This document shows positions 998 through 31,614 of a stretch of 32,186 nucleotides of DNA, one piece after another. The stretch's first letter is position 1; each line of letters opens with the position of its first letter. The stretch spans positions 1 through 32,186 of IMG/VR virus record IMGVR_UViG_3300025138_012222. One strand, written 5' to 3'. The notes below the pieces were generated by a model. That model saw only the letters and a list, made by a program, of their open reading frames with translations, was not told where the DNA came from and did no database searches. The DNA comes from a virus. The position numbers and the translations under genes are program-made.

Positions 998-1004
998 TTA
1001 AATA
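998..1004 (+). promoter_or_regulatory. Candidate late promoter element TTAAATA before gp17
   Basis: TTAAATA lies five bases before the gp17 ATG. The T4 late promoter, read by the gp55 sigma factor, is TATAAATA. The same TTAAATA motif occurs at similar distance from ATG codons at 13418, 23913 (minus) and 23940. There is no Shine-Dalgarno sequence between motif and ATG, so a transcript from here would be almost leaderless. Confidence 0.4.
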
Positions 1005-1009
1005 ACAGC

Positions 1010-2590
1010 ATGGCACAGAGTCTACAAGGTAATCTCACCAAAAAGGCACATTCTAAAGTTAAGTTTACAGGAGATCAAATTCTTGAACTTAATAAATGTA
1101 TGGATCCCAAAACAGGGCCAATATATTTTATGAAAAAATATTGCATGATACAACATCCTACCAAAGGATCTATGCCATTTGAAATGTTTGACTATCAAAC
1201 TCGATTGGTGTCTACATACCATAACAATAGATTTTCTATCGCAATGTTGCCAAGGCAAACAGGCAAAACAACATGTGCGGCCGCTTACCTTGTTTGGTAT
1301 GCAATGTTTGTACCAGACTCACAAATACTGATTGCGGCACACAAGTTTACAGGTGCTCAAGATATAATGAATAGAGTAAGATTTACCTATGAATCGTTGC
1401 CCGATTTTATTCGTGCTGGCGCATATTCCTATAACAGAAACACATTAGAATTTGATAATGGATCAAGAATCAAAGCAACCACTACAACAGAAAACACTGG
1501 TAGAGGTATGTCATTGTCTGTAATATATTGCGATGAGTTTGCATTTGTGCAACCACCTTCCAAAGCAAGTGAATTTTGGACTTCGTTAGCACCAACACTG
1601 GCTACTGGTGGTAAATGTATTATCACATCTACGCCAAACTCGGATGAAGATCAATTTGCTTTAATTTGGAAAGAAGCAAACAAAAAATTAGATGAGTATG
1701 GCAATGAATTGCCCATAGGGAGAAACGGATTTGCGGCTTTTCAAGCATCATGGAGAGAACATCCGGATCGAACAGAAAAATGGGCAAAAGAAGAACGTGC
1801 AAGAATAGGTGAAGAAAGATTTAGACGTGAACACGACTGCGAATTTCTGATCTATGACGAAACGCTGATCAAAGCAACCAAATTAGTTGACCTAGAAGGG
1901 GTAGAACCTACAGAAAGACATGGACATGTACGTTGGTACAAAAAAGTACAAAAAGGCAAAGCATATATTTTTGCTCTAGATCCTTCTTTAGGCACAGGAG
2001 GTGATTATGCCGCAATACAACTGTATGAACTGCCAACAATGACACAGGTTGCTGAATGGCAACACAATAACACGCCTATTCAGGGGCAAGTAAGAATACT
2101 GAAAACAATGATTGAAGAAGTTGCCGATAGTCTCAAAGAGCAAGGTATTGTGCAACCGGAAATATATTACTCAATAGAAAACAACACCATAGGAGAAGCA
2201 GGACTGGTTGCTATCAGTGATATAGGAGAAGAAAACATTTCTGGACAGTTGCTTTCAGAAGCAGTGAAAAAAGGACATGTAAGAAGATTCAGAAAAGGTT
2301 ACAATACCACACACAATTCCAAAATGAGTGCCTGTGCTAAGTTCAAACAGATGGTTGAAAATGATAGCATGGTAATAAAATCCAAAAATTTAGTGTCAGA
2401 ACTTAAAAATTTTGTGGCATCTGGGAACAGTTTTAAAGCAAAACCAGGCGAACATGACGATTTGGTGATGAGCACACTTTTAGCAGTGCGTATGGCATCT
2501 ACAATCAGTGCATGGGATCAAAAACTATTCGAAAGATTGCGAGATTCCGAAGAAGAACTGATAATGCCTATGCCTATTATAATGTCATAA
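1010..2590 (+). CDS. 17: Terminase large subunit gp17 (ATPase-nuclease packaging motor)
   Basis: This is the motor that pumps DNA into the prohead and cuts concatemers to headful length. In 526 residues, the N-terminal ATPase has a Walker A LPRQTGKTT at about 80-88 (T4 type has RQLGKTT), Walker B VIYCDE at 171-176 with the catalytic Glu next to the Asp, and the coupling motif TSTPN at 207-211. The C-terminal RNase H-like nuclease shows D324 in FALDPSLG, E390 in SIENN and D483/D484 in GEHDDLV, matching the D-E-D triad of T4 gp17. Length is somewhat shorter than T4 gp17 (610 aa), mainly at the N-terminus. All catalytic residues are present, so it should be active. It follows the gp16 region and precedes two probable virion genes. 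No strong ribosome binding site is seen before the ATG. Confidence 0.97.
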   Translation: MAQSLQGNLTKKAHSKVKFTGDQILELNKCMDPKTGPIYFMKKYCMIQHPTKGSMPFEMFDYQTRLVSTYHNNRFSIAMLPRQTGKTTCAAAYLVWYAMFVPDSQILIAAHKFTGAQDIMNRVRFTYESLPDFIRAGAYSYNRNTLEFDNGSRIKATTTTENTGRGMSLSVIYCDEFAFVQPPSKASEFWTSLAPTLATGGKCIITSTPNSDEDQFALIWKEANKKLDEYGNELPIGRNGFAAFQASWREHPDRTEKWAKEERARIGEERFRREHDCEFLIYDETLIKATKLVDLEGVEPTERHGHVRWYKKVQKGKAYIFALDPSLGTGGDYAAIQLYELPTMTQVAEWQHNNTPIQGQVRILKTMIEEVADSLKEQGIVQPEIYYSIENNTIGEAGLVAISDIGEENISGQLLSEAVKKGHVRRFRKGYNTTHNSKMSACAKFKQMVENDSMVIKSKNLVSELKNFVASGNSFKAKPGEHDDLVMSTLLAVRMASTISAWDQKLFERLRDSEEELIMPMPIIMS

Positions 2591-2593
2591 ATA
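2586..2593 (+). promoter_or_regulatory. Weak candidate late promoter CATAAATA
   Basis: CATAAATA differs by one base from the T4 late consensus TATAAATA. It overlaps the gp17 stop region and lies 27 bases before the next ATG, which has a good Shine-Dalgarno (AAGGGG). AT-rich sequence makes chance matches likely. Confidence 0.3.
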
Positions 2594-2620: not shown

Positions 2621-3223
2621 ATGGGCGTAACATTTATAAGTGACGAAGTTGCTACTGATGATAATGGTATAACAGCCGCAGCCGCCGTCGGTAACAATGC
2701 CGCATTCACTTTAGGTGGTGCACTTGCGAGTGGTGGTACTGTAACATTTGCTTCAGCCAGAAAAGTAGAAGTAACAGCAGGAGGCGATGATCGGGCAATT
2801 GCATATGATATTACTGGCACTGACCTAAGAGGCAATGTTCAAACTGAAAGATTAACTGGTGGCAATAGTGCGGCCACAGTGACTACTGCTTTTTTTAAAA
2901 CCGTTACTGCAATAACAGCAGTGGGTGACCCTGCAGGCAATCCAATTGCAGGCACAGAAGCTGCCGGAAATATCGCTGATGTGGTGCTTACTACTGACTG
3001 TAGACTAAAAGGATTTTCTATTGTGTCAGGAGGTACTGCTGGTGTAGTTGAATTCCGCAAAGGCAGTGAAACTGGAACAATATTATTCAAAGCCAGAACA
3101 CTTGGCACTGACAACACAACTGTTGATCACACAATACCAGGAGATGGAGTATTATTTGAAGGTGGCTGTTACGTGACTTATACTGTAGCTACTATTGACA
3201 TGATGACTTTTTACTTCAATTAA
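2621..3223 (+). CDS. Probable virion structural protein, Ala/Gly/Thr-rich (200 aa)
   Basis: I do not recognise a named family. The protein is rich in Ala, Gly, Thr and Val with short alternating segments (GGTVTFASARKVEVTAGGDDRA, written here in part), typical of an all-beta protein such as a head decoration or tail-associated protein. There is no membrane segment and no catalytic motif. The end (YVTYTVATIDMMTFYFN) looks like a terminal beta strand. A good ribosome binding site (AAGGGG, about 9 bases before ATG) and the location between gp17 and another large unknown protein suggest high late expression and a structural role. GC content is slightly higher than its neighbours because of the many GCN and GGN codons. 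Function remains inferred. Confidence 0.82.
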   Translation: MGVTFISDEVATDDNGITAAAAVGNNAAFTLGGALASGGTVTFASARKVEVTAGGDDRAIAYDITGTDLRGNVQTERLTGGNSAATVTTAFFKTVTAITAVGDPAGNPIAGTEAAGNIADVVLTTDCRLKGFSIVSGGTAGVVEFRKGSETGTILFKARTLGTDNTTVDHTIPGDGVLFEGGCYVTYTVATIDMMTFYFN

Positions 3224-8488: not shown

Positions 8489-8517
8489 TTGACACCTAGC
8501 CTTTAAAAATATATAAT
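8489..8517 (+). promoter_or_regulatory. Consensus promoter directly on the aminotransferase start
   Basis: TTGACA (8489-8494) and TATAAT (8512-8517) are perfect hexamers with a 17-base spacer. The expected transcript start (~8524) is only about two bases before ATG 8526, so the message would be essentially leaderless. It is the first promoter of the glycan block. Confidence 0.8.
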
Positions 8518-10549: not shown

Positions 10550-10625
<76 letters not shown>

Positions 10626-10628
10626 AAA

Positions 10629-10718
10629 GGAAGGATGGCAGAGTGGTTGATTGCAACAGTCTTGAAAACTGTCGAAGGTGCAAGCCTTCCGTGAGTTCGA
10701 ATCTCACTCCTTCCGCCA
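10629..10718 (+). tRNA. tRNA-Ser (anticodon TGA), CCA encoded
   Basis: Class II tRNA, 90 bases: acceptor GGAAGGA with TCCTTCC, anticodon stem ACAGT/ACTGT with loop CTTGAAA (TGA at 10663-10665), long variable arm with stem GAAGG/CCTTC, T arm GTGAG-TTCGAAT-CTCAC, then GCCA. All stems pair well. It reads TCA, a frequent Ser codon here. Only three bases separate it from the tRNA-Thr. Confidence 0.97.
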
Positions 10719-13399: not shown

Positions 13400-13414
13400 G
13401 TATTAAATACGTAC
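13400..13414 (+). promoter_or_regulatory. Candidate late promoter GTATTAAATACGTAC
   Basis: The box TTAAATA (13403-13409) lies 8 bases before ATG 13418. The whole element is almost the same as the minus-strand sequence before the gene starting at 23913 (GTATTTAAATACGTAC), sharing the core AAATACGTAC. The shared sequence before two unrelated genes points to a regulatory site. Confidence 0.5.
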
Positions 13415-13417
13415 ATA

Positions 13418-13867
13418 ATGATATTGATATCACACAGAGGTAACATCAACGGAAAAATACCTGAAAGAGAAAATACACCACAGTATATTCAGGAAGCACT
13501 AGATCAAGGATATCATGTTGAGGTTGATGTATACTCCACAGAGGTAAGCGGCTTTTATCTGGGACACGACAAACCAGACCATTTGGTATCAAGCACATGG
13601 TTAAAAATAAACTCAATCTGGTGTCATGCTAAGACTTTCAATGCTTTAGAAGGACTGGTTGCACAAGGTATACACTGTTTTTATCATCATGCAGACAAAT
13701 ACACACTAACATCAAAAGGATATATTTGGGCATTTCCTGGTCAACTAGGAGGAAAAAACACCATTGCTGTGCATCCAGATCAACTTACAGAAACAGAATA
13801 TCTAGAATGTTCAGGACTGTGCAGTGACTACGTTTCCAAGTATAAACATTTAGAGGATCAAAAATGA
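13418..13867 (+). CDS. GDPD-like (glycerophosphodiester phosphodiesterase family) short protein
   Basis: The start ISHRGNINGKIPERENTP, then HVEVDV and LGHD, carries the family's catalytic set: H6-R7 (HRG), E35 and D37, and H50. These bind the metal and act as general acid in hydrolysis of glycerophosphodiesters. The protein is only 149 aa versus about 240-300 in full enzymes, so the C-terminal half of the barrel is short or missing. A minimal variant or a changed function is possible. It overlaps the nucleotidyltransferase by 4 bases (ATGA). In a sugar-activation operon it could act on a phosphodiester intermediate, but that is inference. Confidence 0.68.
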   Translation: MILISHRGNINGKIPERENTPQYIQEALDQGYHVEVDVYSTEVSGFYLGHDKPDHLVSSTWLKINSIWCHAKTFNALEGLVAQGIHCFYHHADKYTLTSKGYIWAFPGQLGGKNTIAVHPDQLTETEYLECSGLCSDYVSKYKHLEDQK

Positions 13868-19196: not shown

Positions 19197-19797
19197 AACG
19201 TTTGCCTCGTTTGTCACTCATAATAAAGTAATTCAACGTTATTCTATTAGTTGATTCACTACTTTCATACGAGTGCCAAGTTTTGCCTTTTTCACCACAA
19301 AAAACAAATGTCGAATTTGGTTTCCAAGGTGCTTCTGCTATAAAACTAGACTCATTTTTTGTCGAATACATTTTTGTACCAATGTTTTTTATCGGTGTCA
19401 CATAAGTCACAGCCGACCAAATTTTTTCCAGTCCTTCTTCATGAATATCAAACTTATAAGGTAAAGGCGGTGTTATAGAAATGTGTGCATACACTGTTAA
19501 ACTATTGTACCATCTTGGATTCGTGTACAGGTCTTTGACCAATGCTTTTGCATTATCTAATATGGTTTTGCCTATGTCATACACTTCGTCATACAAATCA
19601 ATGCCATACTGATCAAATTCATCTGGAAATATAAATCTTAAATTACCACCATTGTCCATGTTAAGAAATTGTTGACATTGAGATTGTAATCTATCAAATA
19701 CATCTGTTGGAATAGTATCATCTATAATTTGGTGTTGCCATGGATCTTGCAACACAGGAGATGTCAGTATTTTATCTAGGAAGTATTGGCCTGCCAT
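19189..19797 (-). CDS. 2OG-Fe(II) oxygenase-like protein
   Basis: Oxygenases of this kind use 2-oxoglutarate and iron to hydroxylate proteins or small molecules, and they are common in marine T4-like phages. The 202-residue protein has a plausible facial triad: FDIHEEG gives H119-x-E121, then GKTWHSYES gives distal H175, and NRITLNYF gives R185 for 2-oxoglutarate binding. HxE instead of HxD is rarer but allowed. The strand pattern WSAVTYVTP...NSTFVFCGEKGKTWH fits a double-stranded beta helix. ATG at 19797 is chosen because a longer frame to 19881 would run over the start of asnB. The two genes then diverge with only 12 bases between their starts. Confidence 0.72.
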   Translation of the reverse strand: MAGQYFLDKILTSPVLQDPWQHQIIDDTIPTDVFDRLQSQCQQFLNMDNGGNLRFIFPDEFDQYGIDLYDEVYDIGKTILDNAKALVKDLYTNPRWYNSLTVYAHISITPPLPYKFDIHEEGLEKIWSAVTYVTPIKNIGTKMYSTKNESSFIAEAPWKPNSTFVFCGEKGKTWHSYESSESTNRITLNYFIMSDKRGKRFI

Positions 19798-19809
19798 ACA
19801 TATATTTAC

Positions 19810-21537
19810 ATGTGTGGTATATACGGCATAACAAAACGTGACCCCGAATTTATTAGATCCTATATAGATAGTTGCAGTCATAGAGGCCCAGATGGCTCAG
19901 ACATTTGGTATGACGATCACGTAACTTTAGGACACAATCTCTTATCAATTACTTCCGAACCTGAAGTTGGCAAACAACCATGGCACACTGATAAGGGTAA
20001 TATACTAATTTACAATGGAGAAATATTCAACTATGATCATGTGATATGGTTATATAGGAACAGCGGATGGATCCCAAAAACTACATGCGATACAGAATTA
20101 TTGGCATTTTTATTGGACTCATTTTATGTGGACATTATCAACAGCAACATTATTGATTCAATGCATGCCTATGCATACTATGATAAAGAACAAAAAACAA
20201 TTACACTGTCAAGAGATCATGCAGGAATAAAACCTCTGTTTTATGCAGAGACATCCGACGGATTAGTTTTTGGTTCTGAGATTAAAGGCATGATTGATAA
20301 AGTACCAGGCGCCAGATGTATTGATGAATTTGCAAGTGCATCAATGAGTTATTCAGGTATTAACATCTCTGCCAACACAATGTTCAAAGGCATCAAAAAA
20401 GTTTTACCAGGACAGACTCTAGTATATGACATTCACAAACAAAAATTTACCAGAACTTCGCGATGGGTTATTAAACCTACTTCTAAGAAAGGATTTGATC
20501 CAGAAGAATTTAGACAAGAAGTACATGAAACTGTTAAAATGTGTACGCTTGGTATGCGTAAATTTGGTGTGTTTCTATCAGGCGGTTTAGATTCAACTAT
20601 GATAGCACACGAACTAAACAAGATCCTACCATCTGTTGATTCTTTCACAAATGAAATGAATCCTAATGTTATTATAGGCGAGGATCATAACGATGATGCC
20701 AAACATGCAAAATGGTTTGCTGATCACTATGGCTTCAATCATCATCCTATTCAAGTTACTCCCGAGACTGTCAAGTCTTGTTGGAATGACTCAATGTTCA
20801 CAATGGAGCAACCCGTGTATAATATGAGTATGCCAATGTATTATCACACCAACAAAGTGCTGAGTCAACACGATGTAGTAGTAACCATGGCCGGAGATAT
20901 GGGTGACGAATTATTAGGAGGTTATCCCAAATATTGGAAACTAAAAAACAACTTGCCTACATCATTTGAAGAATGTGTTTGGCGATGGATGCACAGAATA
21001 AAACGTCCTGTGCAATTGAGTAAAAAAGTCGATGCAAAAGCAATACATGGCGAACTGTGTAAAATTATCCCACAAGAACTTTGGAATCCGGAAGATCCTA
21101 TCAATTCTTATATGGCTATCGATTGCATCACACAAGTGCCTGAAGAATTCTTTTCCCGCAATGATCAGTTCGGGATGAAATTTGGCATGGAGGGAAGATT
21201 TCCTTTGGCTACTCAACGCTTTATGAAATACTGCATGGACATTCATTCTGATCATAAAATAGGCAAAGACAAATCTGATACAAAATTATTAAGCAAAATT
21301 GCATACAAAGGCCACATGCCTGATTACATCATAAACAAAATGAAAACAGGTTGGACTGTGCCTTTAATTTATTGGCTGGGCACAAACAAAGATTTGGATG
21401 ATTTTGCAATGTCATATATGAATGCAGATGACTGTTTAAAAAACACAGTGTCTATGGACAATTGGAAAAATAAAAAAACAAGAGTTATTTCTTGGATGAT
21501 GCGTTCTTGGGCACAGCGTTATTCAATGACACTGTGA
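19810..21537 (+). CDS. AsnB-like glutamine-dependent amidotransferase
   Basis: Two-domain asparagine-synthetase family protein, 575 aa. The start at MCGIYGI leaves Cys as the N-terminal nucleophile of the glutaminase. HRGPDGSD, IYNGEIFNY (N69 type) and CDTELL (D94 type) are present; the upstream extension to 19786 would bury the Cys and is rejected. The synthetase half has the P-loop VFLSGGLDST (SGGLDS at 257-262) and AGDMGDELLGGY. The Arg that binds glutamine in E. coli AsnB (AHERLSI) is replaced by Leu (GHNLLSI), which may lower glutamine use. In glycan loci such proteins often amidate uronic acids rather than make asparagine, so that is a fair inference here. It is convergent with the next gene, overlapping 19 bases. 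Confidence 0.88.
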   Translation: MCGIYGITKRDPEFIRSYIDSCSHRGPDGSDIWYDDHVTLGHNLLSITSEPEVGKQPWHTDKGNILIYNGEIFNYDHVIWLYRNSGWIPKTTCDTELLAFLLDSFYVDIINSNIIDSMHAYAYYDKEQKTITLSRDHAGIKPLFYAETSDGLVFGSEIKGMIDKVPGARCIDEFASASMSYSGINISANTMFKGIKKVLPGQTLVYDIHKQKFTRTSRWVIKPTSKKGFDPEEFRQEVHETVKMCTLGMRKFGVFLSGGLDSTMIAHELNKILPSVDSFTNEMNPNVIIGEDHNDDAKHAKWFADHYGFNHHPIQVTPETVKSCWNDSMFTMEQPVYNMSMPMYYHTNKVLSQHDVVVTMAGDMGDELLGGYPKYWKLKNNLPTSFEECVWRWMHRIKRPVQLSKKVDAKAIHGELCKIIPQELWNPEDPINSYMAIDCITQVPEEFFSRNDQFGMKFGMEGRFPLATQRFMKYCMDIHSDHKIGKDKSDTKLLSKIAYKGHMPDYIINKMKTGWTVPLIYWLGTNKDLDDFAMSYMNADDCLKNTVSMDNWKNKKTRVISWMMRSWAQRYSMTL

Positions 21538-22322
21538 GCGTACCCAGACGCCATTTCTTCTAATGTAAATTGACTGTGGGCCAAACTGTTCAACCATGGC
21601 TGTCTATCAAACGTTTGTAAATCTTCTATAGCATCTAGTGTGTTGCTTACAGGAAATGCCGCACATTCAGGACCGCACACAACTGGAATACCCTCCATTA
21701 TAGCAGTCACACCAACACCTGAATTAAAAGTTACTACACAATGTGCATCAGCAAGATCTTCTGCCAGTGCTTTATCTTCTTTTGTTTTGATAAAACCATT
21801 AATGGTTGTTACTCCGTCAATGCGTTTTACTTGTGGATTCATTGGCTTGTCTCTCACCACAATTTCACGGTCAGTTTTCTGTTTTAAAGCATCTACAGTG
21901 GTGTTGAGCCAATCCCGAGTATCAAACATCCACTCCATTGCTCCTGTGGGTGGACACACTATTACTTTGTTGCCTGATCGCCATGGTTTAATAGATTTGT
22001 TAAAGTGTTTGTGCCATCTGTCTGAAGTGCGATTCAACAACTTATTTTGCACATGATCATTTTTGGTTACTCTGTACCAGGATGGTTTTTTGTTATGTCC
22101 TGCATCAAAATAGGCATGATCAATAAAATAGTAATCATAATTTTTTTGTATGCATTTTTTAATCATATCGCCAGCGCCTCGTAAAACTCCTAAAAAAGCA
22201 TAAGTGTCATGGGGCATGTCTTGACCATCTTTGATTGGATTAATAATAGTACCGTCACAACCTTTGGCCCATGAATTTATTATTTTTTCTGTAGCAGGCC
22301 GCATTGTTCTAACGCATTTCAT
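21519..22322 (-). CDS. Capsule-transferase-like protein (paralogue 1)
   Basis: 267 aa. The C-terminal half contains VVTFNSGVGVTAIMEGIPVVCGP, the pattern (Ser/Asn, G-x-E-A/E, G-I/K-P-V) seen at the donor-binding site of capsule polysaccharide transferases of the KpsC/KpsS kind. It is followed by FDRQPWLNSLAHSQFTLEEMASG, a segment shared with the genes at 22309 and 23940. The N-terminus (YYFIDHAYFDAG) fits a GT-B-like first domain. No membrane segment. It overlaps the upstream minus-strand gene by 14 bases. Likely transfers or handles a sugar of the block's glycan; substrate unknown. Confidence 0.68.
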   Translation of the reverse strand: MKCVRTMRPATEKIINSWAKGCDGTIINPIKDGQDMPHDTYAFLGVLRGAGDMIKKCIQKNYDYYFIDHAYFDAGHNKKPSWYRVTKNDHVQNKLLNRTSDRWHKHFNKSIKPWRSGNKVIVCPPTGAMEWMFDTRDWLNTTVDALKQKTDREIVVRDKPMNPQVKRIDGVTTINGFIKTKEDKALAEDLADAHCVVTFNSGVGVTAIMEGIPVVCGPECAAFPVSNTLDAIEDLQTFDRQPWLNSLAHSQFTLEEMASGYAHSVIE

Positions 22323-23100
22323 TATACAGGCCTTCCATTATCTCTTTGAACAATCCTGATTGTATTTCATCATGAGTGTATTGGTGATAACTGAGTGTTG
22401 CTAACCATTCTTTGCGTTGCTCTGAATAATTAGGTTGTCCAAAATTTTCTACGGATTGTGCAATAGGCCAAGTGGCTCCTCTAGGCAGACTGTAAACAGG
22501 AATGCCTTCTATGGCCGCTTCAACTCCGACCAAGGAGCATGAGGTTACAACACATGACGCTTTGGCAAGATCATCTGCCAACGGCACAAGAGCATAAGCA
22601 GGACCGCTTCTGCCAGCACCTCCTCGAGGTTTGTATCTGATTTTTATAGGCATATCTGTTTTTGTTTTTAATAATTCTATTGTTTCTCTTTCCCAATTTT
22701 GCCTTCCAACAAACCCATTAATAGAATCAGATGAAGGTGCAAGTAAAATGTACTCACCTTTCGTTCGCCAATCTTTTATTGATATGTTTTTTATTCTGTC
22801 GTGAGGTAGACCTTCGTGTATTTTCGTTACATGAATATCTTTATAAATGGTTCGCCAATAGTATTCACCATTAGGACTTACTGATTCTTTTAGAGGATTC
22901 CAACGGCCCCAGTATGGCATGTCGCAAAACAACCAAGGCTTATTGTTAATTACACATTCTCTAGCACGTCTATGATTGGCTAAACGCAATCCCCACATAG
23001 TAGGTATTCCTTCATCATGATGATATTTTTTTAGTGGACGCAGAGTGTACCAAGCTTTGCTTTCAGGCCCGTGCCCATTGTTGATAATGTTAAGTTTCAT
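22309..23100 (-). CDS. Capsule-transferase-like protein (paralogue 2)
   Basis: 263 aa, homologous to the previous gene and to 23940: CVVTSCSLVGVEAAIEGIPVYSLPRG corresponds to CVVTFNSGVGVTAIMEGIPVVCGP, and EWLATLSYHQYTHDEIQSG corresponds to PWLNSLAHSQFTLEEMASG. The N-terminal part starts MKLNIINNGHGPESKAWYTLRPLKKYHHDEG. YILLAPSSDSINGF is the interdomain region of a GT-B-like fold. It is transcribed with the genes at 21519 and 23104 on the minus strand with minimal spacing. The role is inferred as glycan transfer. Confidence 0.68.
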   Translation of the reverse strand: MKLNIINNGHGPESKAWYTLRPLKKYHHDEGIPTMWGLRLANHRRARECVINNKPWLFCDMPYWGRWNPLKESVSPNGEYYWRTIYKDIHVTKIHEGLPHDRIKNISIKDWRTKGEYILLAPSSDSINGFVGRQNWERETIELLKTKTDMPIKIRYKPRGGAGRSGPAYALVPLADDLAKASCVVTSCSLVGVEAAIEGIPVYSLPRGATWPIAQSVENFGQPNYSEQRKEWLATLSYHQYTHDEIQSGLFKEIMEGLYNEMR

Positions 23101-23103
23101 TTG

Positions 23104-23913
23104 TTACTGGATTTTGTTCCAGTAGTCGTTGTTGTGTTGAATATAGATGTCAGTGCGTTTTGAATGTCCATCTTGTTTGCGTTTGCCTTTAAGATGATCC
23201 ATATATTCCCCTAGGGGAGAATTTATAAACACATGCACGCCGGGTCGATGCGGATGATTCTCAGATATGTTATGTGACTTTAATCCTTGTGCTTCGTACT
23301 TTTCTTTTATTGTTTGAAATGCAATACAATCATGGTATTCTACCAAATCAAATATTTTATCAGAGTTGTACAATTCTTGCCAATCTTTCATAAACTGTTC
23401 ATTGTATGGACTGGTTGTGTCATAGATTACAAATCCACATTCAGGATAAATTTTTTGTCTGCCTAAGTAAGCACAGTAATTGTCTTGGGGTAAGAGGCTC
23501 TCAATAAATTCTGCTGGAATAGGATTATGGGTAACAACATCCGCGTCCAACCAGACTATTAAATCTGATGAACTATTAAGAGCCTCGTGTGATACACAGT
23601 ATGATTTATGTGCAAACTTGATTGCGTCCCACAAATATGATCCTTTGCGTTTTAGGTCACTACCTATTTTATGACCTTTTGCATGTGGATTATCTTTATG
23701 TTTTGTTTTGAATGCTACTAAATCAGGACATACTGCATTGAGATCTACCCATTCGACTTGATCACCATAATCTACATTAGGTTTTACTTCGTAATAAATT
23801 TTTAATTTTATTTCTTTTGGCCAATATTTTACAAAAGTCTCTACCATACGTTTGCCATACTCGTCCCACCCGGTAGAAGAAAAAGTTGTAATAACCGTTA
23901 TTGCCCTTGTCAT
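23104..23913 (-). CDS. Glycosyltransferase, GT-A type (DAD motif)
   Basis: 269 aa. The start RAITVITTFSSTGWDEYGKRMVETF is typical of phage and bacterial GT-A proteins. The metal motif LIVWLDADVVTHNPIP gives D123-x-D125, followed by CAYLGRQKIYPECGFVIYD (acceptor side) and a C-terminal HPHRPGVHVF and RTDIYIQHNNDYW. It is the first gene of the three-gene minus-strand group. The ATG at 23913 is preceded by the palindromic TTAAATA element shared with the gene at 23940. Confidence 0.78.
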   Translation of the reverse strand: MTRAITVITTFSSTGWDEYGKRMVETFVKYWPKEIKLKIYYEVKPNVDYGDQVEWVDLNAVCPDLVAFKTKHKDNPHAKGHKIGSDLKRKGSYLWDAIKFAHKSYCVSHEALNSSSDLIVWLDADVVTHNPIPAEFIESLLPQDNYCAYLGRQKIYPECGFVIYDTTSPYNEQFMKDWQELYNSDKIFDLVEYHDCIAFQTIKEKYEAQGLKSHNISENHPHRPGVHVFINSPLGEYMDHLKGKRKQDGHSKRTDIYIQHNNDYWNKIQ

Positions 23914-23921
23914 TTAAGTAC

Positions 23922-23933
23922 GTATTTAAATAC
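23922..23933. promoter_or_regulatory. Palindromic divergent promoter candidate GTATTTAAATAC
   Basis: A perfect 12-base palindrome in the 26-base gap between two divergent genes. It gives TTAAATA on both strands, 9 bases before ATG 23913 (minus) and 7 bases before ATG 23940 (plus). The minus-strand flank continues as ACGTAC, as at 13400. It could be a two-way late promoter. Confidence 0.5.
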
Positions 23934-23939
23934 TGTGCA

Positions 23940-24917
23940 ATGAAAGTTGAGATATTTCGAAACACTGTAAAAAGAAGAGGCAAAGGTGCTTCCTTTGAAA
24001 TGATGAAAGCGTGGCGAGATGGCATTGCATCTGCTGGTGACGAGCCTGTTTGGATTGAAGGTAAAGGTGATGCTGAACGCTGGATGGGACCTCCTAAAGA
24101 AAAAGTTGCTGTGCATTTTGGTTATGGTCCTGACAATGCCGGATCATTTTTAAAAGGCAATCGTAGACAGATCAGACAGCACATGGAACAGACTGGCGGA
24201 GTGCCTATTGTGTTCGACGGAGGACTGTGGACATCCTTTGGCAACAGAGCAACAGACCCAAACACACACTACTTTAGGTGTGCTCTATGGTCGCCTATGC
24301 GTAATGGAAACTTTTTGAATGCAGATTGTAATGGTGATAGATGGCACAAAATTAAATCCGAATTCAACATACCAGATCGTCCATGGCGTAAAGAAGGCAA
24401 GTATATTCTGCTGTGTTCTCAACCAAAAGACAATTGGTCCATGGCGCAAAAAGATCCATACGTATGGATTGACGAGGTTGTAGAACAATTAAAAGCAGTG
24501 ACTGATCGACCAATAATGTTGCGACCACATCCTAATCATGCCGACAAATGTGCAGAAGATATTAAAAAAAGACATCCGCAAATAAAAATTGCAGACATGA
24601 CCCGAGGTGGTGGCATGTTTCATGGTTATAGATGGACTTTCTTAGAAGAACTTAATGATATTCACTGCATGATCACACACAATTCTACTGCGGCTGTCGA
24701 TGCCGCCACATATGGTGTGCCTGTGTTTATGACTTCTGATTTGTGTCTTGCATGGGACATAGGATCAAACAATTTAAAAGACATAGAAAATCCACATATG
24801 CCAGACCGCACACAGTGGTTACACAATCTTGCTTATACCAATTGGACATTGCAAGAAGTACGCGATGGCACTGTATGGAAAAGATTCAAACCACACGTGG
24901 AGCAAATGATTAAATGA
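23940..24917 (+). CDS. Capsule-transferase-like protein (paralogue 3)
   Basis: 325 aa from ATG 23940; a 13-residue extension upstream runs over the divergent start and the palindrome and is rejected. It begins MKVEIFRNTVKRRGKGASFEMMKAWRDG. It shares with the genes at 21519 and 22309 the C-terminal block: CMITHNSTAAVDAATYGVPVFMTS, then DRTQWLHNLAYTNWTLQEVRDG. RPHPNH in the middle is a common segment in capsule and Kdo-type transferases. It is longer at the N-terminus than its paralogues. It overlaps the GT25 gene by four bases (ATGA). Probable transferase in glycan assembly. Confidence 0.7.
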   Translation: MKVEIFRNTVKRRGKGASFEMMKAWRDGIASAGDEPVWIEGKGDAERWMGPPKEKVAVHFGYGPDNAGSFLKGNRRQIRQHMEQTGGVPIVFDGGLWTSFGNRATDPNTHYFRCALWSPMRNGNFLNADCNGDRWHKIKSEFNIPDRPWRKEGKYILLCSQPKDNWSMAQKDPYVWIDEVVEQLKAVTDRPIMLRPHPNHADKCAEDIKKRHPQIKIADMTRGGGMFHGYRWTFLEELNDIHCMITHNSTAAVDAATYGVPVFMTSDLCLAWDIGSNNLKDIENPHMPDRTQWLHNLAYTNWTLQEVRDGTVWKRFKPHVEQMIK

Positions 24918-25543
24918 AAGCGTTTATAATATACCTCAAAGAAGTTCAATCTACTGTGGACTCTGCACTGGACTGTAAACTGTCAGCAAGACAACATGGT
25001 CTTGATGCATGGCTGATGGAGGGATTTACTCCTTCACGTGCTGACAAATTTATTGCCGAACAAAATCTTCAACCTTATCTACCGGGACCTAAACTGTACA
25101 AAATAAAATGGCAAAAAGGTGGTGTCCGTGGTTGTATGATTTCACACTACCATGTCTGGAAAAAATGTATCGAACTGGATGAGCCAATTGTGGTATTAGA
25201 ACACGATTCGCGTGTGGTAAGTGATTCATATGATCAAGACTTCCAAGATATTTTACATCTCGATGGATACAGATTTGAAGAAGATCCATATATGGGTCAT
25301 GATCCATTTGTTGAAAATTTTGTCAACATACGCAAAGGCGAAAATCAACTGATGGGCACATATGGATATGTTATTAAACCGCATGCGGCCCAACGCTTAA
25401 TTAAAGGTGCTCATGAAGATGGTATTACAGCATCAGACATGTTTGTCAAAGACAAGTATGTAAAAATAGAAGTAGTTAAGCCACGTGCAGTGGTTGTCAA
25501 CAGCCAGGACAGTTTGACTAGCAATAGGGCATTCTATATATAA
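24914..25543 (+). CDS. Glycosyltransferase family 25-like
   Basis: 209 aa. GT25 enzymes are LPS or lipooligosaccharide galactosyl/glucosyl-type transferases. Signature: GGVRGCMISHYHVWKKCIELDEPIVVLEHDSRV, where GC-x-x-SH (73-78), the W, and the E-x-D (96-98) are the family positions. Then TYGYVIKPHAAQRLI, the donor-side segment also typical of GT25. It is translationally coupled to the preceding gene. It most likely adds a hexose to the glycan. Confidence 0.83.
   Translation: MKAFIIYLKEVQSTVDSALDCKLSARQHGLDAWLMEGFTPSRADKFIAEQNLQPYLPGPKLYKIKWQKGGVRGCMISHYHVWKKCIELDEPIVVLEHDSRVVSDSYDQDFQDILHLDGYRFEEDPYMGHDPFVENFVNIRKGENQLMGTYGYVIKPHAAQRLIKGAHEDGITASDMFVKDKYVKIEVVKPRAVVVNSQDSLTSNRAFYI
25514..25542 (+). 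promoter_or_regulatory. Weak candidate promoter inside the end of the GT25 gene
   Basis: TTGACT (25514-25519), 17-base spacer, TATATA (25537-25542). The start would fall on ATG 25548. It is AT-rich and could be chance, but repeats the leaderless layout of 8489 and 16463. Confidence 0.35.
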
Positions 25544-25547
25544 AAAT

Positions 25548-26285
25548 ATGCATATCACACTCACAGGCTCACATGGTTTCATAGGAACACATGTACGAAA
25601 ATATCTAGAAGCAAACGGTCACACTGTTGACTGTTGGGATTTACTCATACAAAAAGACATTGGCAATTTCAATATTGACCCCAAATCAGATCTTTGTATA
25701 CACTTGGCGGCAAAAGCAGACATTCGTGAAAGTTTTTCAAAACCGGATTTATATTGGCAAGAAAATGTTGCAAAATGTAGAACAGTGTTCAATGAATGTG
25801 CCAAACACAATATAAGAGTAATATATGCATCTTCTTCTGCATGTATAGAGTGGCACAGAAATCCTTATGCTTTATCAAAATATGTAGACGAATTTATTGC
25901 ACCAAAAGATTCTGTTGGTTTACGTTTTTCAACTGTATGGGGCGACGGTGCTAATGAATACATGTTGATTTCTAAATTAAAATTAGGTACAATTACATAT
26001 GCAACAACACACACTAGAGATTTTATCCATGTGTCGGATGTTGTAAGTGCTATACAAACGATAATGAACAATCCAGAAGAACAGGGAGTGTTTGACTGCG
26101 GTTGTGGTATAGCATTTAAAGTAGACCAATTGGTAGCACAAAACGGATATGTGGTGCCAGTCACAGAAGGAGAAGACTTCGAATTAGAGTCTAATGTTTT
26201 ACCATCTGTGGAACTAAGAGCATTAGGTTGGCTACCAAAAGTAAATGTAATGGAAGAAAAGCTTAATCGGAATGATAAAATTTAA
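25548..26285 (+). CDS. NAD-dependent sugar epimerase/dehydratase (extended SDR)
   Basis: 245 aa. TGSHGFIGTH at 6-15 is the NAD(P)-binding GxxGxxG loop. HLAAKAD is the family's second nucleotide contact. The catalytic pair is Y107-x3-K111 (NPYALSKYVDE) with SSS at 95-97. TRDFIHVSDVV is also typical of sugar epimerases. It is shorter than the usual 300-330 residues, with a reduced C-terminal substrate domain. It changes the configuration or oxidation of a nucleotide sugar; which one cannot be read. It overlaps the radical SAM gene by 14 bases. Confidence 0.86.
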   Translation: MHITLTGSHGFIGTHVRKYLEANGHTVDCWDLLIQKDIGNFNIDPKSDLCIHLAAKADIRESFSKPDLYWQENVAKCRTVFNECAKHNIRVIYASSSACIEWHRNPYALSKYVDEFIAPKDSVGLRFSTVWGDGANEYMLISKLKLGTITYATTHTRDFIHVSDVVSAIQTIMNNPEEQGVFDCGCGIAFKVDQLVAQNGYVVPVTEGEDFELESNVLPSVELRALGWLPKVNVMEEKLNRNDKI

Positions 26286-27408
26286 TTTAGATGAAATCAC
26301 AGAATGGCAATTAGAAATTACAACAAGATGTAATGCCGCCTGCCCACAGTGTCCCCGAAATATCAATGGTGGCAAAGTAAATCCTCACATGCCATTAGTC
26401 GATATGGATATTGAATGGATAAAAAAGGCATTCACTCAAGACATATTGGATAGATGCAAACAGATATTTTTCTGTGGCAGTTATGGTGATCCATCTGTTC
26501 ACCCGCAGTTTTTAGAAATATTACAATGGTTTAGAGATCAAAGGGCAGACTTGTGGTTATACATACACACCAATGGGGCCAAACGTAAAGAAGGTTTTTG
26601 GGAAGAGATTGCAAAAATTATGAACGGCTATGGACAAATTGACTTTGGCATTGATGGATTAGAAGACACTAATCATCTGTACAGAGTAGGAGTGAGATAC
26701 GAACATGCAATACAAAATGCTAAAAATTTTATCAACACAGGCGGAAGAGCCAAATGGAACTTTATTGTGTTTAAACACAATGAACATCAAATAGAAACTG
26801 TAAAAAAACTAGCAGAAGAATATAACTTCGTCGAATGTCTTGTACGCAAAACAGGAAGATTCTTTGATCAGAAGAAACTAGAACCCATGGAGAAATGGCC
26901 CGTGAAAAACAGTGTAGGTCAAACAGTACGCCATTTAGAAATGCCAGACAATCCCGAATATAGAAACGATAGTGTCAGCAGAGTAAATGAAGTGAAAGAA
27001 AAGTATGGCTCAATGCTTGACTATTTCAAACAAACTGATATTACCTGTGATGCATTGCTAGGTAACAAAGTAGTAATAACAGCAGAAGGCATAGTGATGC
27101 CTTGTAATTTCTTTGAACATAATCTGTATGATGCACGGTTTCATGAGGAAGCAGATCCTGGTTCATTTGACCCGTTAGAAGAAAACAAGTATAATAATCA
27201 AATCACAATGATGTATAAAAAATATGGAAAAGAAAACTTACAAGTACAAAACAAATCAATGATAGAAATATTTGAAAACAAGTTTTGGCATGATCTAGTA
27301 GACAGTTGGAGTAAAAAAGATTTCAAAGCCGGTAGACTATTTGAATGTGCCTTCACATGTGGACAGACGTTTAACAAATGTTGGGACCAAGGAGGCAGTG
27401 TAAGATGA
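26272..27408 (+). CDS. Radical SAM protein with SPASM-like end (paralogue of 9670)
   Basis: 378 aa. CNAACPQC gives C20-x3-C24-x2-C27 for the 4Fe-4S cluster. FFCGSYGDPSVHPQF, YIHTNGA, FGIDGL and HLYRV mirror the smaller gene at 9670 segment by segment. The C-terminal region has VMPCNFFEHN and a Cys-rich end CAFTCGQTFNKCWDQ, as in SPASM auxiliary-cluster proteins. SPASM proteins act on peptides or on aminoglycoside-type sugars (epimerisation, dehydrogenation). In a glycan block, a sugar substrate is reasonable but unproven. It ends in ATGA overlap with the short SDR gene. Confidence 0.88.
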   Translation: MIKFNLDEITEWQLEITTRCNAACPQCPRNINGGKVNPHMPLVDMDIEWIKKAFTQDILDRCKQIFFCGSYGDPSVHPQFLEILQWFRDQRADLWLYIHTNGAKRKEGFWEEIAKIMNGYGQIDFGIDGLEDTNHLYRVGVRYEHAIQNAKNFINTGGRAKWNFIVFKHNEHQIETVKKLAEEYNFVECLVRKTGRFFDQKKLEPMEKWPVKNSVGQTVRHLEMPDNPEYRNDSVSRVNEVKEKYGSMLDYFKQTDITCDALLGNKVVITAEGIVMPCNFFEHNLYDARFHEEADPGSFDPLEENKYNNQITMMYKKYGKENLQVQNKSMIEIFENKFWHDLVDSWSKKDFKAGRLFECAFTCGQTFNKCWDQGGSVR

Positions 27409-27989
27409 AAATTCTTGTCACAGGCGGAAATAGAGGATTAGGCAAAACCATTGTAGAAACTTTGGGTGCAGACAGTATAAGCAGATCTACAAGCAATCAC
27501 GATATCACTAAGAACATTGACACTATAATTGAAAAAAGTTTGGATTATGATATCTTTATTAATAATGCATTTGATGGACCTCCTCAAGAAGATTGGGCAA
27601 ATTTTGGACAATCTATTTTGTTAATGAAAATGTTTGAGTCTTGGAAAGCACACAATAAAAGTGGTTGGCTGTTCAACATAGGCAGTATTGCTAGTGATGA
27701 TAACGTTGCTCCTGAACCTTCATGGGAAACTTATAGAGTATCAAAAAAAAGTTTAGAAGCGGCAAGCCTACAATGTAGTCGAGCATTTAGAAATAATCAA
27801 GTGTCTTTCAAAACAACATTAATCAAACCCGATAGATTGGATACTGAGTTGTCTAGATCAAGACCAACATGGACTGGTAACGGTGTTGATTGTAATGACA
27901 TCATAGCATTTATAAAATATTGTTTAGAGATCAGAAGCAACAGTCAAATAGATCAAGTAACTATTTCACTAAATTATGATTACAAGTAA
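27405..27989 (+). CDS. Short-chain dehydrogenase/reductase
   Basis: 194 aa from ATG 27405, whose ATG overlaps the previous stop (ATGA); an upstream in-frame extension is rejected. TGGNRGLGKT (6-15) is the classic TGxxxGxG loop, NNA (53-55) stabilises the fold, NIGSIAS holds the catalytic Ser, and Y110-x3-K114 (YRVSKKS) completes the active site. It is shorter than the typical 250 aa. It probably reduces or oxidises a sugar intermediate. Confidence 0.86.
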   Translation: MKILVTGGNRGLGKTIVETLGADSISRSTSNHDITKNIDTIIEKSLDYDIFINNAFDGPPQEDWANFGQSILLMKMFESWKAHNKSGWLFNIGSIASDDNVAPEPSWETYRVSKKSLEAASLQCSRAFRNNQVSFKTTLIKPDRLDTELSRSRPTWTGNGVDCNDIIAFIKYCLEIRSNSQIDQVTISLNYDYK

Positions 27990-28013
27990 CAAAAGTTTGG
28001 GAGAGTAAAAAAT

Positions 28014-28640
28014 ATGCAACTAGTAGAAGGATTATACATACCAGATGATGATCATCCAGAACATCATATTGCACAGTCAGTGAAAGATCATGACGGTGCT
28101 TTACATAAAGAAATTTTAGCACGTAGTAAAAATTTTCGACACATGGTTGACGTAGGAGGCAATGTAGGACGTTGGGCCATACAATATGCTCCGCACTTTG
28201 ATACTGTCACAGCATTCGAACCTGCACACTACAATATTGAATGTTTCAAAAAGAACTGTGAAAATTTACAAAATGTTAACCTAATCGAACATGGCTTGTC
28301 TGACAAAAATACTAGCGGAGTGTTAGATGTCAAAGTACCTAATCATCTGGGTTCGACCATGGTTGTAGAAAGATATAAAGGTGATATAAAATTATGTCCA
28401 ATGGATGAAATGCAGTTGACTAACGTGGATGTTCTAAAAATTGATGTTGAAGGAGCAGAATTACAAGTGCTTCACGGTGCAAAAAATACTATTGACTCTT
28501 CGTCGCCTTTGATATGTTTGGAACGCTGTGTGTTCAATCAAGGCAATGATGGCAAACAGGCAATCAATACCTGGTTGGAAGGCCTAGGTTATACTAGAGT
28601 CTATAAAATTACCAGAGACTGCATCTATCAAAGATTATGA
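28014..28640 (+). CDS. FkbM-family methyltransferase
   Basis: 208 aa. MVDVGGNVGRWAIQ (44-57) is motif I, TVTAFEPAHYNIECFKKNC motif II, and LKIDVEGAELQVLHGAKNTI the FkbM hallmark. It has a good ribosome binding site (GGGAGAG) about 8 bases before ATG, unlike most genes of the block, so it may be translated strongly. It overlaps the epimerase gene by four bases (ATGA). The third FkbM gene of the window. Confidence 0.88.
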   Translation: MQLVEGLYIPDDDHPEHHIAQSVKDHDGALHKEILARSKNFRHMVDVGGNVGRWAIQYAPHFDTVTAFEPAHYNIECFKKNCENLQNVNLIEHGLSDKNTSGVLDVKVPNHLGSTMVVERYKGDIKLCPMDEMQLTNVDVLKIDVEGAELQVLHGAKNTIDSSSPLICLERCVFNQGNDGKQAINTWLEGLGYTRVYKITRDCIYQRL

Positions 28641-29641
28641 AAATCCTAGTAACAGGATCTCTTGGATTTGTAGGTTCTCATCTTGCCAAACGATACCATG
28701 CAAAAGGTCACCGAGTAGTTGGCATAGACAATGGTGTTGGTGGTTATGATGATAATCTTACCGAAGTTCAAACATTAAGAATTGATTGCTGTGATCAATC
28801 TGCATTGGATCAACTGTTTGCACGTGAAAAATTTGATATTGTTATTCATGCGGCCTGTACAGCGTATGAAGGACTCAGTGTTGTGTCTCCTGTACTAGTT
28901 ACAAGAAACACGTACGATGCAACTGTGAATGTGTTAACAGCGTCAATCAAACACAATGTAAAACGATTTGTGTATATGAGTTCAATGGCACGGTATGGCA
29001 AACAACAGCCGCCATTCACAGAAGACATGAAGCCTGCTCCTGAAGATCCATATGGCATTGCTAAAGTGGCAGCCGAAGACACTGTGAAATGTTTGTGCGA
29101 AGTAAACAACATAGACTGGAGCATTGTGGTGCCTCACAACATTTATGGCCCTAATCAAGTCTATGATGATCCTTTTAGAAATGTTGTATCAATATTTTTA
29201 CATAGAAACTTGCAAGGCAAACCTTGTATAATATATGGAGATGGTGAACAAAAACGTTGTTTTTCTTACATAGATGACACACTGCAAATTTTTGATAGAA
29301 TTGTTTTTGACAAAGAAGCAGTTGGTCAAATATTTAATTTAGGTCCCGATGAAGATTATATTTCTATTAACGAACTCGCAGATCTCACAGCAAATGCAAC
29401 TGGTTACAATGGTGTACACCAGTACATGCCAGGAAGGCCAAAAGAAGTAAAGTATGCAACATGTTCATCAAATAAAATTAGAGAATATTTTAATTACAAA
29501 ACAGAGGTACAAATCAAAGACGGCATAACGCAGACTTTGGATTATATTAGAAATCGTGGCATAAGGAAATTTAATTATTCTTTGCCGATAGAAATTGAAA
29601 ATGAACACACACCAGAAACATGGACCAAGAAACTAATATAG
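28637..29641 (+). CDS. NAD-dependent nucleotide-sugar epimerase (UDP-glucose 4-epimerase-like)
   Basis: 334 aa, full family length. TGSLGFVGSH at 6-15 (NAD loop), HAACTAYEG, MSSMARYG (catalytic Ser/Thr position), Y139-x3-K143 (DPYGIAK), NIYGPNQ, and CFSYIDDT are all in the order seen in GalE/WbpP-type and related extended SDRs. It probably converts a UDP- or GDP-sugar. Translated by coupling from the methyltransferase; its end overlaps the next glycosyltransferase by 22 bases. Confidence 0.89.
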   Translation: MKILVTGSLGFVGSHLAKRYHAKGHRVVGIDNGVGGYDDNLTEVQTLRIDCCDQSALDQLFAREKFDIVIHAACTAYEGLSVVSPVLVTRNTYDATVNVLTASIKHNVKRFVYMSSMARYGKQQPPFTEDMKPAPEDPYGIAKVAAEDTVKCLCEVNNIDWSIVVPHNIYGPNQVYDDPFRNVVSIFLHRNLQGKPCIIYGDGEQKRCFSYIDDTLQIFDRIVFDKEAVGQIFNLGPDEDYISINELADLTANATGYNGVHQYMPGRPKEVKYATCSSNKIREYFNYKTEVQIKDGITQTLDYIRNRGIRKFNYSLPIEIENEHTPETWTKKLI

Positions 29642-30294
29642 TAATTTGTTGCCCAAGTCGAGGCAGGCCAGACTATGCTAAACGCATGGAACAATCTGCC
29701 TACGCCACTGCAAAATGGCCTAATCAAATAAAGGTAAAATTTTATCTAAATGAAGATGATCCAACACTCAAGCAGTACAAAGTTTTTGATGCAGACATTG
29801 GTATAGATAGAAGCACTGTTATGAGTTGGAATATGTTAGCCGAAAGCGAAAACAGCAAGATGTACATGCTGTGCGGGGATGATGCAGAATTTATTACACC
29901 AGGCTGGGATGAAATATTTCTTAAACAATATGAGAAATATCCGGATGGTATTTTTATGATTGGCACTGCTACAGGCAAAAAACATGGATTGACACATCGC
30001 ACATCACCGCATCCTGTCATTACAAAAGAATGGCGCAATGCTTTGGGATATCATTTTCCGCCACAGTTTCATCATTGGTACTTAGATGCATACACCAACG
30101 ATCTTGCAAATGCTGTGAATAGATATATTTTTATGGAAGATGTAATGATCAAAGTAAAAAAAATTACACAAGACGACACTGCTAAACGCATACGAACCAG
30201 TGCTGTGCATCAAAGAGATACTTGGGTATATAATAAAACTAAACAGTGTTACTTTGATTATGATGTCAGTAAACTTCGAAAGGCAATGAAATGA
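29620..30294 (+). CDS. Glycosyltransferase-like protein (GT-A type)
   Basis: 224 aa. NIVICCPSRGRPDYAKRM is the entry strand seen in GT2-like phage proteins, KVKFYLNEDDP follows, and MLCGDDAEFITPGWDEIF holds the acidic metal motif (D87, D88). Late in the protein, HHWYLDAYTNDLANA and MEDVMI fit the acceptor side. It has no membrane segment. It is coupled to genes on both sides (22-base overlap before, ATGA after). The sugar is unknown. Confidence 0.76.
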   Translation: MDQETNIVICCPSRGRPDYAKRMEQSAYATAKWPNQIKVKFYLNEDDPTLKQYKVFDADIGIDRSTVMSWNMLAESENSKMYMLCGDDAEFITPGWDEIFLKQYEKYPDGIFMIGTATGKKHGLTHRTSPHPVITKEWRNALGYHFPPQFHHWYLDAYTNDLANAVNRYIFMEDVMIKVKKITQDDTAKRIRTSAVHQRDTWVYNKTKQCYFDYDVSKLRKAMK

Positions 30295-30911
30295 ATCTAG
30301 CAGTGTTCGGCGATAGTTGGCCAATTGGCACAGAACTGCAACCAGGCGAGATCCCGTTCGGCGATCTTTTACATGTGAAATTGGAAACTGAAAATTTTTA
30401 CAATGAAGCGGAACAAGGCTCGAGCATCGACTCTTTAATTTTACAATTGGACAACTTTGCAAAACGTAAAATACAAAATTGTATTTGTGTATTTTTTATA
30501 ACGAATCCTACAAGATTTTTACATTTTCAAAACGGACAAAAACAGATTCTTAGACCAACCGGAGACAAAAGTGCATTGAATAGATTTTATTTCTTAGACG
30601 TACAGTCAGATGAATTGGATTATCATAGGGCAAATGTATCCATACTAGCAGTGCAAAGAATGTGCCAACAATTGGGTTACCAAGATTATTACATAGAAGG
30701 TTGGACCAACATAGATTGGAAATATGAAGGCATAGACAAAACAAAATTTATTCCACAAAGTGCTACTGAGATGTTTGGAGCCGACACAAATACAAAAACA
30801 TTAGAACTTACAAAATTTCAAGACAATGAATACATTAGGCCAAACAAGTATCATCCTAATCAAAAAGGTCACAGTCTTATAGCAGAAAAACTTTTTAAGT
30901 TTATTAGATAA
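30291..30911 (+). CDS. SGNH-hydrolase-like protein
   Basis: 206 aa. FGDSWPIG at 6-13 is block I with the nucleophile Ser9. Near the end, NKYHPNQKGHSLIAEKL is block V with H188 as the likely catalytic His. The Asp usually three residues before that His is Asn185 here, so the triad may be only a Ser-His dyad. The family includes esterases and sugar O-acetyl hydrolases or transferases, so acetyl decoration of the glycan is a reasonable guess. It meets the minus-strand gene tail-to-tail with an 8-base overlap. Confidence 0.76.
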   Translation: MNLAVFGDSWPIGTELQPGEIPFGDLLHVKLETENFYNEAEQGSSIDSLILQLDNFAKRKIQNCICVFFITNPTRFLHFQNGQKQILRPTGDKSALNRFYFLDVQSDELDYHRANVSILAVQRMCQQLGYQDYYIEGWTNIDWKYEGIDKTKFIPQSATEMFGADTNTKTLELTKFQDNEYIRPNKYHPNQKGHSLIAEKLFKFIR

Positions 30912-31614
30912 ATTCGTTTATGCAACGTCCACGTAGACGTTCATATTTCCTACGACCTACTGGCCCGCCTCTCATAGATTTACTCAATCCGTAGGCGTGA
31001 CAAAAATAGCCAGTCATACTCATTTTTTCGTTGAAGCGATAATTCATATATTTGGTTGGTACATTACTGTCCAGCATTGTGCGGATCAGTATCCTACTGT
31101 CATCATCATTCCAACTCTTGTAGTCGCAGAACGGCCTCATTGTTTTTGCAGAAGATTCATTTATCATAAACACACCTGCATTAAATCGTCTCGAGGCTAG
31201 TGTCTGCGGATCGTACTTTTCCAGAATAGTATTTTGTTTTTCCAACTGATGCCATTGAAGTTCTTTCTGTTCTGCCCGAACACTGTGTACCGGTTTAAAA
31301 CTGTCAGTGTCAGGGTACATTTCGAAACAGTTTGGAGCATCAGACCAAATGACGACATCAGTGTCCAGATACAACACATTATTATATTTGCTCCACCAGT
31401 CATCGTTGAGAATTAGGTCCAGTCTTTCGAAGGTTGGGTGTGTATGATTTACTCTTGCTTCGGTAATCAATTGATAATCAACTCCGCATTTTTCAGCATA
31501 TTTTTTTACAGAGAATGTAGAATAATGAAACAATTCATCTACATGGTTAATTTTATTGAAATCTGGTTGCACGTAATTGTCTGGTTTCACAAAATACTGT
31601 ACAATACAATCCAT
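30904..31614 (-). CDS. Glycosyltransferase, GT8-like (paralogue of 12301)
   Basis: 236 aa. HYSTFSVKKYAEKCGVDYQ, HPTFERLDLILNDDWWSKY and VLYLDTDVVIW (D84-x-D86) match the gene at 12301 step by step. RRFNAGVFMINESSAKTMRPF and the final HAYGLSKSMRGGPVGRRKYE also have counterparts there. It is alone on the minus strand between two plus-strand genes. The shared family on opposite strands, 18 kb apart, points to duplication or separate acquisition. Confidence 0.8.
   Translation of the reverse strand: MDCIVQYFVKPDNYVQPDFNKINHVDELFHYSTFSVKKYAEKCGVDYQLITEARVNHTHPTFERLDLILNDDWWSKYNNVLYLDTDVVIWSDAPNCFEMYPDTDSFKPVHSVRAEQKELQWHQLEKQNTILEKYDPQTLASRRFNAGVFMINESSAKTMRPFCDYKSWNDDDSRILIRTMLDSNVPTKYMNYRFNEKMSMTGYFCHAYGLSKSMRGGPVGRRKYERLRGRCINEFI

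Follow-up and report, generated by a model that had tools for sequence, protein, structure and literature searches.

A start-proximal box resembling the T4 late promoter, and a palindrome built of two such boxes, in an uncultured clade of T4-related phages

What does a perfectly self-complementary site do between two divergent genes, and do other genes of the same phage use the heptamer that it carries? The site is located in the virus record IMGVR_UViG_3300025138_012222, which is analyzed here over its complete length of 32,186 bases and termed the window. The window is a fragment of a T4-related phage; this label is based on the genes for terL, gp32, UvsX and UvsY, which are grouped in one block. 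The initial annotation described a self-complementary site in which TTAAATA faces both ATG codons, and this arrangement is confirmed at 23922-23933. The features of the locus are the following.

23922-23933, no strand assigned: perfectly self-complementary palindrome GTATTTAAATAC, two overlapping opposite-strand putative late boxes with the core TATTTAAATA
23926-23932, plus strand: putative late -10 box TTAAATA of the rightward gene, 7 nt 5' of ATG 23940
23923-23929, minus strand: putative late -10 box TTAAATA of the leftward gene, 9 nt 5' of ATG 23913
23940-24917, plus strand: rightward gene, 325 aa, family 0; no Shine-Dalgarno (SD) sequence, predicted leader of 0-2 nt
23104-23913, minus strand: leftward gene, 269 aa, family 1; predicted leader of 1-4 nt

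Neither of the proteins of the divergent genes (325 and 269 aa) matched a Pfam or PHROG profile, and a nucleotide search of phage records with the palindrome region gave no match. Distant tblastn matches of the rightward-gene protein are found in Caulobacter and Pelagibacter phages.

TTAAATA is present in five copies on the two strands of the window (998, 13403 and 23926 on the plus strand; 23923-23929 and 29331 on the minus strand), compared with 14.1 ± 3.5 copies in dinucleotide shuffles. Four of the five end 5, 8, 7 and 9 nt before ATG 1010, ATG 13418, ATG 23940 and the minus-strand ATG 23913, respectively, so the earlier observation of four start codons with the heptamer 5-9 bases upstream is borne out, as is the distance of 5 bases that had been given for gp17 (998-1004, ATG 1010). 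When the palindrome is counted once, three of four independent sites lie 5-9 nt before an ATG (p ~9e-8 against uniform placement, with 36 called starts). An extension of the minus-strand copy had been said to recur before an unrelated gene; TTAAATACGTAC indeed occurs at 13403, and again at 23929-23918 on the minus strand. The T4 late box TATAAATA has no copy in the window. The remaining boxes, and the genes that follow them, are listed below.

998-1004, plus strand: putative late box TTAAATA, exactly 5 nt 5' of the terL ATG; transcription predicted to start at the A of this ATG
1010-2590, plus strand: terminase large subunit (gp17, terL), PHROG 36964, E 8.5e-119
13403-13409, plus strand: putative late box TTAAATA with downstream CGTACATA, 8 nt 5' of ATG 13418
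13418-13867, plus strand: gene after this box, PHROG match to phrog_34507
308-314, plus strand: putative late box ATAAATA, 5 nt 5' of the in-frame ATG 320; the longest ORF starts at 317
320-985, plus strand: virion structural protein (phrog_14802), start re-assigned to 320
2586-2593, plus strand: putative late box CATAAATA, 27 nt 5' of ATG 2621; a leadered exception

Related sites are found in relatives. TAARTA lies shortly 5' of the terL ATG in many of them, a CRYAYATA-type downstream sequence resembling CGTACATA also precedes other families, and the family 16 orthologues of the gene at 320-985 have TAAATA 5-8 nt 5' of ATGAAA. The leadered exception can be followed in one related contig, G009, where the late box is situated 6 nt 5' of the ATG of the family 8 gene, which comes next after terL. 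In the window, an extra gene (2621-3223), which has an SD-like leader sequence AAGGGG and precedes the family 8 gene at 3226, separates that gene from the matching box. The longer distance from box to ATG in the window than in G009 suggests that the same promoter has been paired with a leader.

The nearest cultured terL sequences are those of Pseudomonas phage PA5oct and its kin (54.5%), Phosso (50.6%) and Atu_ph07 (48.4%). The terL tree places the window inside an uncultured clade of 27 rows (support 88/98; some branches are long), which adjoins PA5oct, Atu_ph07/Phosso and Munch/Vibrio 2.275 and is remote from T4 and from the cyanophage/pelagiphage group. A search for the host through the sugar-epimerase gene gave matches of only 27-37% in unrelated phyla, and no host is indicated. 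Two samples of relatives were used. The first is made up of the window plus eight related contigs (499,879 bases; 505 genes in 211 families), in which genes were called by a simple codon-usage caller and every start was taken as the first ATG. The second, wider sample covers the neighbourhood of terL in 80 relatives with identities from 90% down to 59% (926 genes).

TAAATA is the top hexamer by excess at 5-9 nt 5' of ATG, being present there in 33 of the 211 families compared with 2.1 families per 5-nt upstream bin in the control. The spacer between TAAATA and ATG has its mode at 5 nt, the counts for 4 to 10 nt being 2, 23, 18, 12, 8, 9 and 3. ATG is the enriched triplet after the box (98 at 5-9 nt, compared with 15-26 in control bands), while TTG is not enriched and GTG is enriched weakly at most. 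Since the relatives share orthologues, gene-level p-values overstate independence; the family-level tests, and the tests on single contigs that are significant on their own (G007, p 3e-23; G009, p 2e-29), are still strong. The proposal of a shared element would be undermined by a heptamer equally common away from start codons. The reverse is observed: TAAATA lies 5-9 nt upstream of 70 of the 505 genes, where 0.5 is expected from uniform placement over 500 kb, and over the whole sequence it is found 209 times against 504 expected, 0.41 of the Markov expectation. TAAGTA is at 0.53 of its expectation in the relatives, and TATAAT and ATAAAT are at 1.0. Avoidance of TAAATA elsewhere is what harmful stray copies would predict. 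A milder deficit (0.66-0.76) is seen in T4, HTVC008M, PA5oct and Atu_ph07, and none in S-PM2.

Start regions are A+T rich, and other A+T hexamers (ATAAAT, AATAAA) are also raised near starts, as would be anticipated if the motif were a by-product of translation or composition, that is, of an A+T-rich unstructured start region or of the TAA stop of the preceding gene. Dinucleotide shuffles, however, place TAAATA at this distance in only 4.5 ± 2.0 families (maximum 10 in 300 shuffles) against the observed 33. The TAA within the motif is the called upstream stop at 3 of 78 sites, and at 37 of the 78 no gene called on the same strand ends within 300 nt. Three further points weigh against such a by-product: the palindrome faces a gene in each direction, the motif is depleted away from starts, and no start-proximal peak of this kind is seen in T4, S-PM2, Phosso and Atu_ph07. 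An origin in composition or stop codons is hardly credible on these grounds.

TTAAATA was rejected as the exact consensus. The relatives give a TAARTA core preceded by A, T or G, that is DTAARTA: position -12 is A (0.45), T (0.40) or G (0.14) and almost never C, position -13 is loose, and the agreement of TAARTA with T4 positions -11 to -6 is built into the search. The suggestion of a shared late element thus holds with respect to its start-proximal position and the virion genes that it precedes, but the heptamer is only one version of DTAARTA. In the wider sample, TAARTA lies 4-10 nt 5' of ATG in 246 of the 926 genes and at 15-45 nt in 120. The larger contigs of the wider clade have mixed box spacing, and some clade genes have the box 20-40 nt upstream.

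Which polymerase would read this box? The late sites have a flat upstream profile with no conserved -35 region. The motif genes with informative PHROG matches encode terminase, head-tail adaptor, tail tube, tail fibre, baseplate wedge and virion structural proteins; PHROG families of unknown function account for several further matches, and family 6 matches a radical SAM family. A second promoter set, TTGACA-N16-18-TATAAT, is also present in the relatives, and 32 of its 64 members within 60 nt of starts are situated 5-9 nt 5' of ATG. A representative in the window, read from the sequence, is

8489-8517, plus strand: sigma70-type promoter TTGACA-N17-TATAAT, ending 8 nt 5' of ATG 8526 (aminotransferase)

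The sampled genes of this sigma70 type encode primase, helicase, part of DNA polymerase, dNMP kinase, SbcD and gp55; portal, a structural gene with a TATAAT-type promoter, is an exception. TAAATA resembles TATAAT, and true sigma70 promoters of the clade stand at equal spacing, so that the host holoenzyme might read the box as a normal sigma70 -10 element, in which case the genes would be leaderless but not late-specific. This is in contrast to the distribution of the -35-like (TTGACA-like) hexamer, which accompanies 1 of 78 late sites (2.7% at random) and 20 of 32 TATAAT sites. The gene classes differ as well, virion genes on one side and primase, helicase, dNMP kinase, SbcD and gp55 on the other, and the genome-wide avoidance concerns TAAATA and not TATAAT. 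Reading by the host holoenzyme is therefore very unlikely.

Homologues of the late sigma factor gp55 are found in relatives (phrog_12791 and phrog_234), phrog_12791 in 9 of the 15 records searched, all of which are fragments; none was found in the window fragment. In L104 the gp55 gene spans 1084-1869. The clade gp55 has a weak phmmer match to T4 gp55 (PDB 7d7c; E 6e-5). Searches for a sliding clamp in the clade (G007, G009 and others) with PF02916, PF09116 and S-PM2 gp45 gave none; PF09116 also found none in PA5oct, which makes this a weak test. A PHROG scan of candidate proteins in the clade gave no clamp. Three features of T4-type late promoters are seen in the clade: a conserved -35 is lacking, the genes downstream are late ones for virion and packaging proteins, and gp55 is encoded in relatives. 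This combination supports the view of the initial annotation that the element may be the late promoter of this phage group, distinct from that of T4.

The distance to the start codon bears on the leader of the messages. Of 83 motif genes, only one has an SD-like sequence, compared with 116 of 422 other genes (Fisher p 1e-9); the contrast is weaker with one member per family (median p 0.004). In T4 late promoters an 8-bp TATA box begins at -13, about one turn 5' of the start, and a conserved -35 is lacking (PMC2988020). The last A of the box is accordingly at -6, so that a 5-nt spacer would set +1 on the A of ATG and spacers of 6-9 nt would give leaders of 1-4 nt; the sites with spacers of 8-9 nt would keep a 3-4 nt leader. 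Leaderless bacterial genes have been recognized by a -10-like box ~12 bp 5' of the start codon (PMC3160421). The motif genes show three features of such TA-led genes, namely a box peak at a spacer of 5-9 nt, no SD sequence in 82 of 83, and an AUG start. It can be strongly inferred from the T4 geometry that the late messages are leaderless or near-leaderless, with 0-4 nt. The near-leaderless late messages suggested earlier are in line with these computed spacings, and the prediction extends to the sigma70-type promoters: those of the replication genes and of the late sigma gene also stand 5-9 nt 5' of ATG, and both classes look leaderless.

We propose, with a probability of about 0.85, that the heptamer is the -10 box of a gp55-dependent, T4-type late promoter, DTAARTA, placed 5-9 nt 5' of ATG so as to give leaderless or near-leaderless virion mRNAs. 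DTAARTA, with less constraint at T4 position -12, would be the clade consensus of the late -10 box. The box is presumably read by the phage gp55; RNA polymerase with this factor would start on the A of AUG or 1-4 nt before it, and the virion-gene mRNAs would be translated without an SD sequence or the usual ribosome-binding leader.

At 23922-23933, two such boxes would stand back to back and overlap, one site serving two divergent genes. A perfect 12-bp palindrome between divergent genes is the classic layout of an operator, and the site could on that account bind a dimeric repressor or activator and be unrelated to late transcription. The 10-mer TATTTAAATA is unchanged in the window and in ten further records with the divergent pair, while the spacers to each ATG differ. 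Invariance is limited to these 10 bp, which are made of the two boxes, and the flanks vary; a 12-bp operator should keep its outer bases, and the palindrome is better described as two overlapping late boxes. The same half-site also stands alone, in direct orientation, before terL and many virion genes, and in families 34/36, another divergent late pair in the clade, the two boxes are set apart and non-palindromic. An operator is highly improbable in view of these observations, and the rivals considered here (upstream TAA stops, composition, a sigma70 box and an operator) are largely rejected by the tests. In three records (L093, L095 and L097) the rightward gene lacks such a box at comparable distance. 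With overlapping back-to-back late boxes, polymerase would be expected to occupy the palindrome in one orientation at a time.

Bidirectional sigma70 promoters have been defined by start sites 7-25 bp apart (PMC10268837). The palindrome has symmetric -10 boxes, and its divergent start sites, predicted from sequence geometry, are ~21-25 bp apart, which would place it among bidirectional promoters. Overlapping symmetric boxes and divergent transcription are shared with the promoters with symmetrical -10 elements reported in PMC10268837 and PMC12825309. Those promoters, however, use the host sigma70, whereas the palindrome is of the putative late type and both of its directions enter coding genes.

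The late promoters of T4 and of the clade are alike in a box that ends in ATAAATA/TAAATA, the lack of a conserved -35, service to mostly virion genes on either strand, and a gp55 homologue, found in the relatives for the clade. They differ in that the clade box, compared with TATAAATA, has A, T or G at -12 and a loose -13, no SD sequence follows, and a clamp was not identified. Aeh1, another T4-type phage, likewise varies at -13/-12 (PMC2988020). The distance from box to ATG is mainly 20-29 nt in T4 and 5-9 nt in the clade; in PA5oct, Atu_ph07, Phosso, Vibrio 2.275, Melnitz, P-SSM2 and S-PM2 the box lies mainly 20-59 nt 5' of ATG. The TA-led leaderless bacterial genes (PMC3160421) share the -10-like box ~12 bp 5' of the start codon and the lack of an SD sequence; the main box of the clade differs in that it belongs to a virus, is a putative late-sigma element of the phage and occurs together with a sigma70-type class. 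The phage AR9 study, with leaders of 26-491 nt, describes the opposite case. In the open-licence literature searched, no paper on leaderless late promoters in T4-like phages was found, only tangential ones.

A further close parallel is the Pelagibacter (SAR11) phage HTVC008M (KC465899), in which the spacing of TAAATA boxes, about half of which are TATAAATA, has its peak at exactly 5 nt 5' of ATG; 10 of 12 near-start boxes are at 5-9 nt (records KC465899; L143, L153-L158). It differs from the clade in being distant by terL, in having SD sequences in 56% of its genes, and in TATAAT boxes that are not near starts. The distance by terL and the mostly leadered state of its kin Melnitz and P-SSM2 suggest an independent gain, and HTVC008M has apparently acquired the same 5-nt layout on its own. 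We consider it somewhat probable that the clade lineage builds most of its regulated transcription, sigma70-type as well as gp55 late, on leaderless messages, so that a single short element would combine promoter strength with translation initiation and SD sequences would serve mainly the downstream genes of operons, the late half of this scheme being convergent in the SAR11 phage.

Most late mRNAs of the T4-type phages in this comparison have space for both a leader and an SD sequence. A widespread, large uncultured clade of aquatic and marine phages with predicted leaderless expression of late and sigma70-type genes would count among the clearest examples of systematic leaderless expression in viruses. 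Efficient translation of leaderless mRNA by the hosts, or modification of initiation by the phage, is suggested by this layout. In metagenomic phages, the box can also serve as a working rule by which start codons are corrected and late genes are classed. The clade, in addition, offers a compact natural set of putative bidirectional late promoters.

Several observations were made in passing. The sigma70-type promoter of the gp55 gene has a -35 element (TTGCAT) that overlaps the late box of a divergent virion gene, at the following places.

L104, 1015-1104: overlap of gp55 promoter and late box
L113, 1474-1562: overlap of gp55 promoter and late box
L127, 19014-19098: overlap of gp55 promoter and late box

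Late polymerase at this overlap could possibly shut off gp55, as a built-in switch. A third start-proximal motif, [GAC]ATAATTA, is found 4-9 nt 5' of ATG in 24 genes of 17 families, with no -35; these are mostly sugar, radical-SAM or unknown genes and include the minus-strand gene 30904-31614 of the window. The motif is perhaps another promoter class or a late variant. The window also carries tRNA-Thr(TGT) and tRNA-Ser(TGA) genes at 10550-10718; an ORF with a GTG start at 10678 overlaps the tRNA-Ser gene, and the start of the QueC-like gene is more likely further downstream. A long run of asparagine synthase, glycosyltransferase, nucleotide-sugar epimerase and radical SAM genes at 19786-31614 suggests surface-glycan or sugar modification functions.
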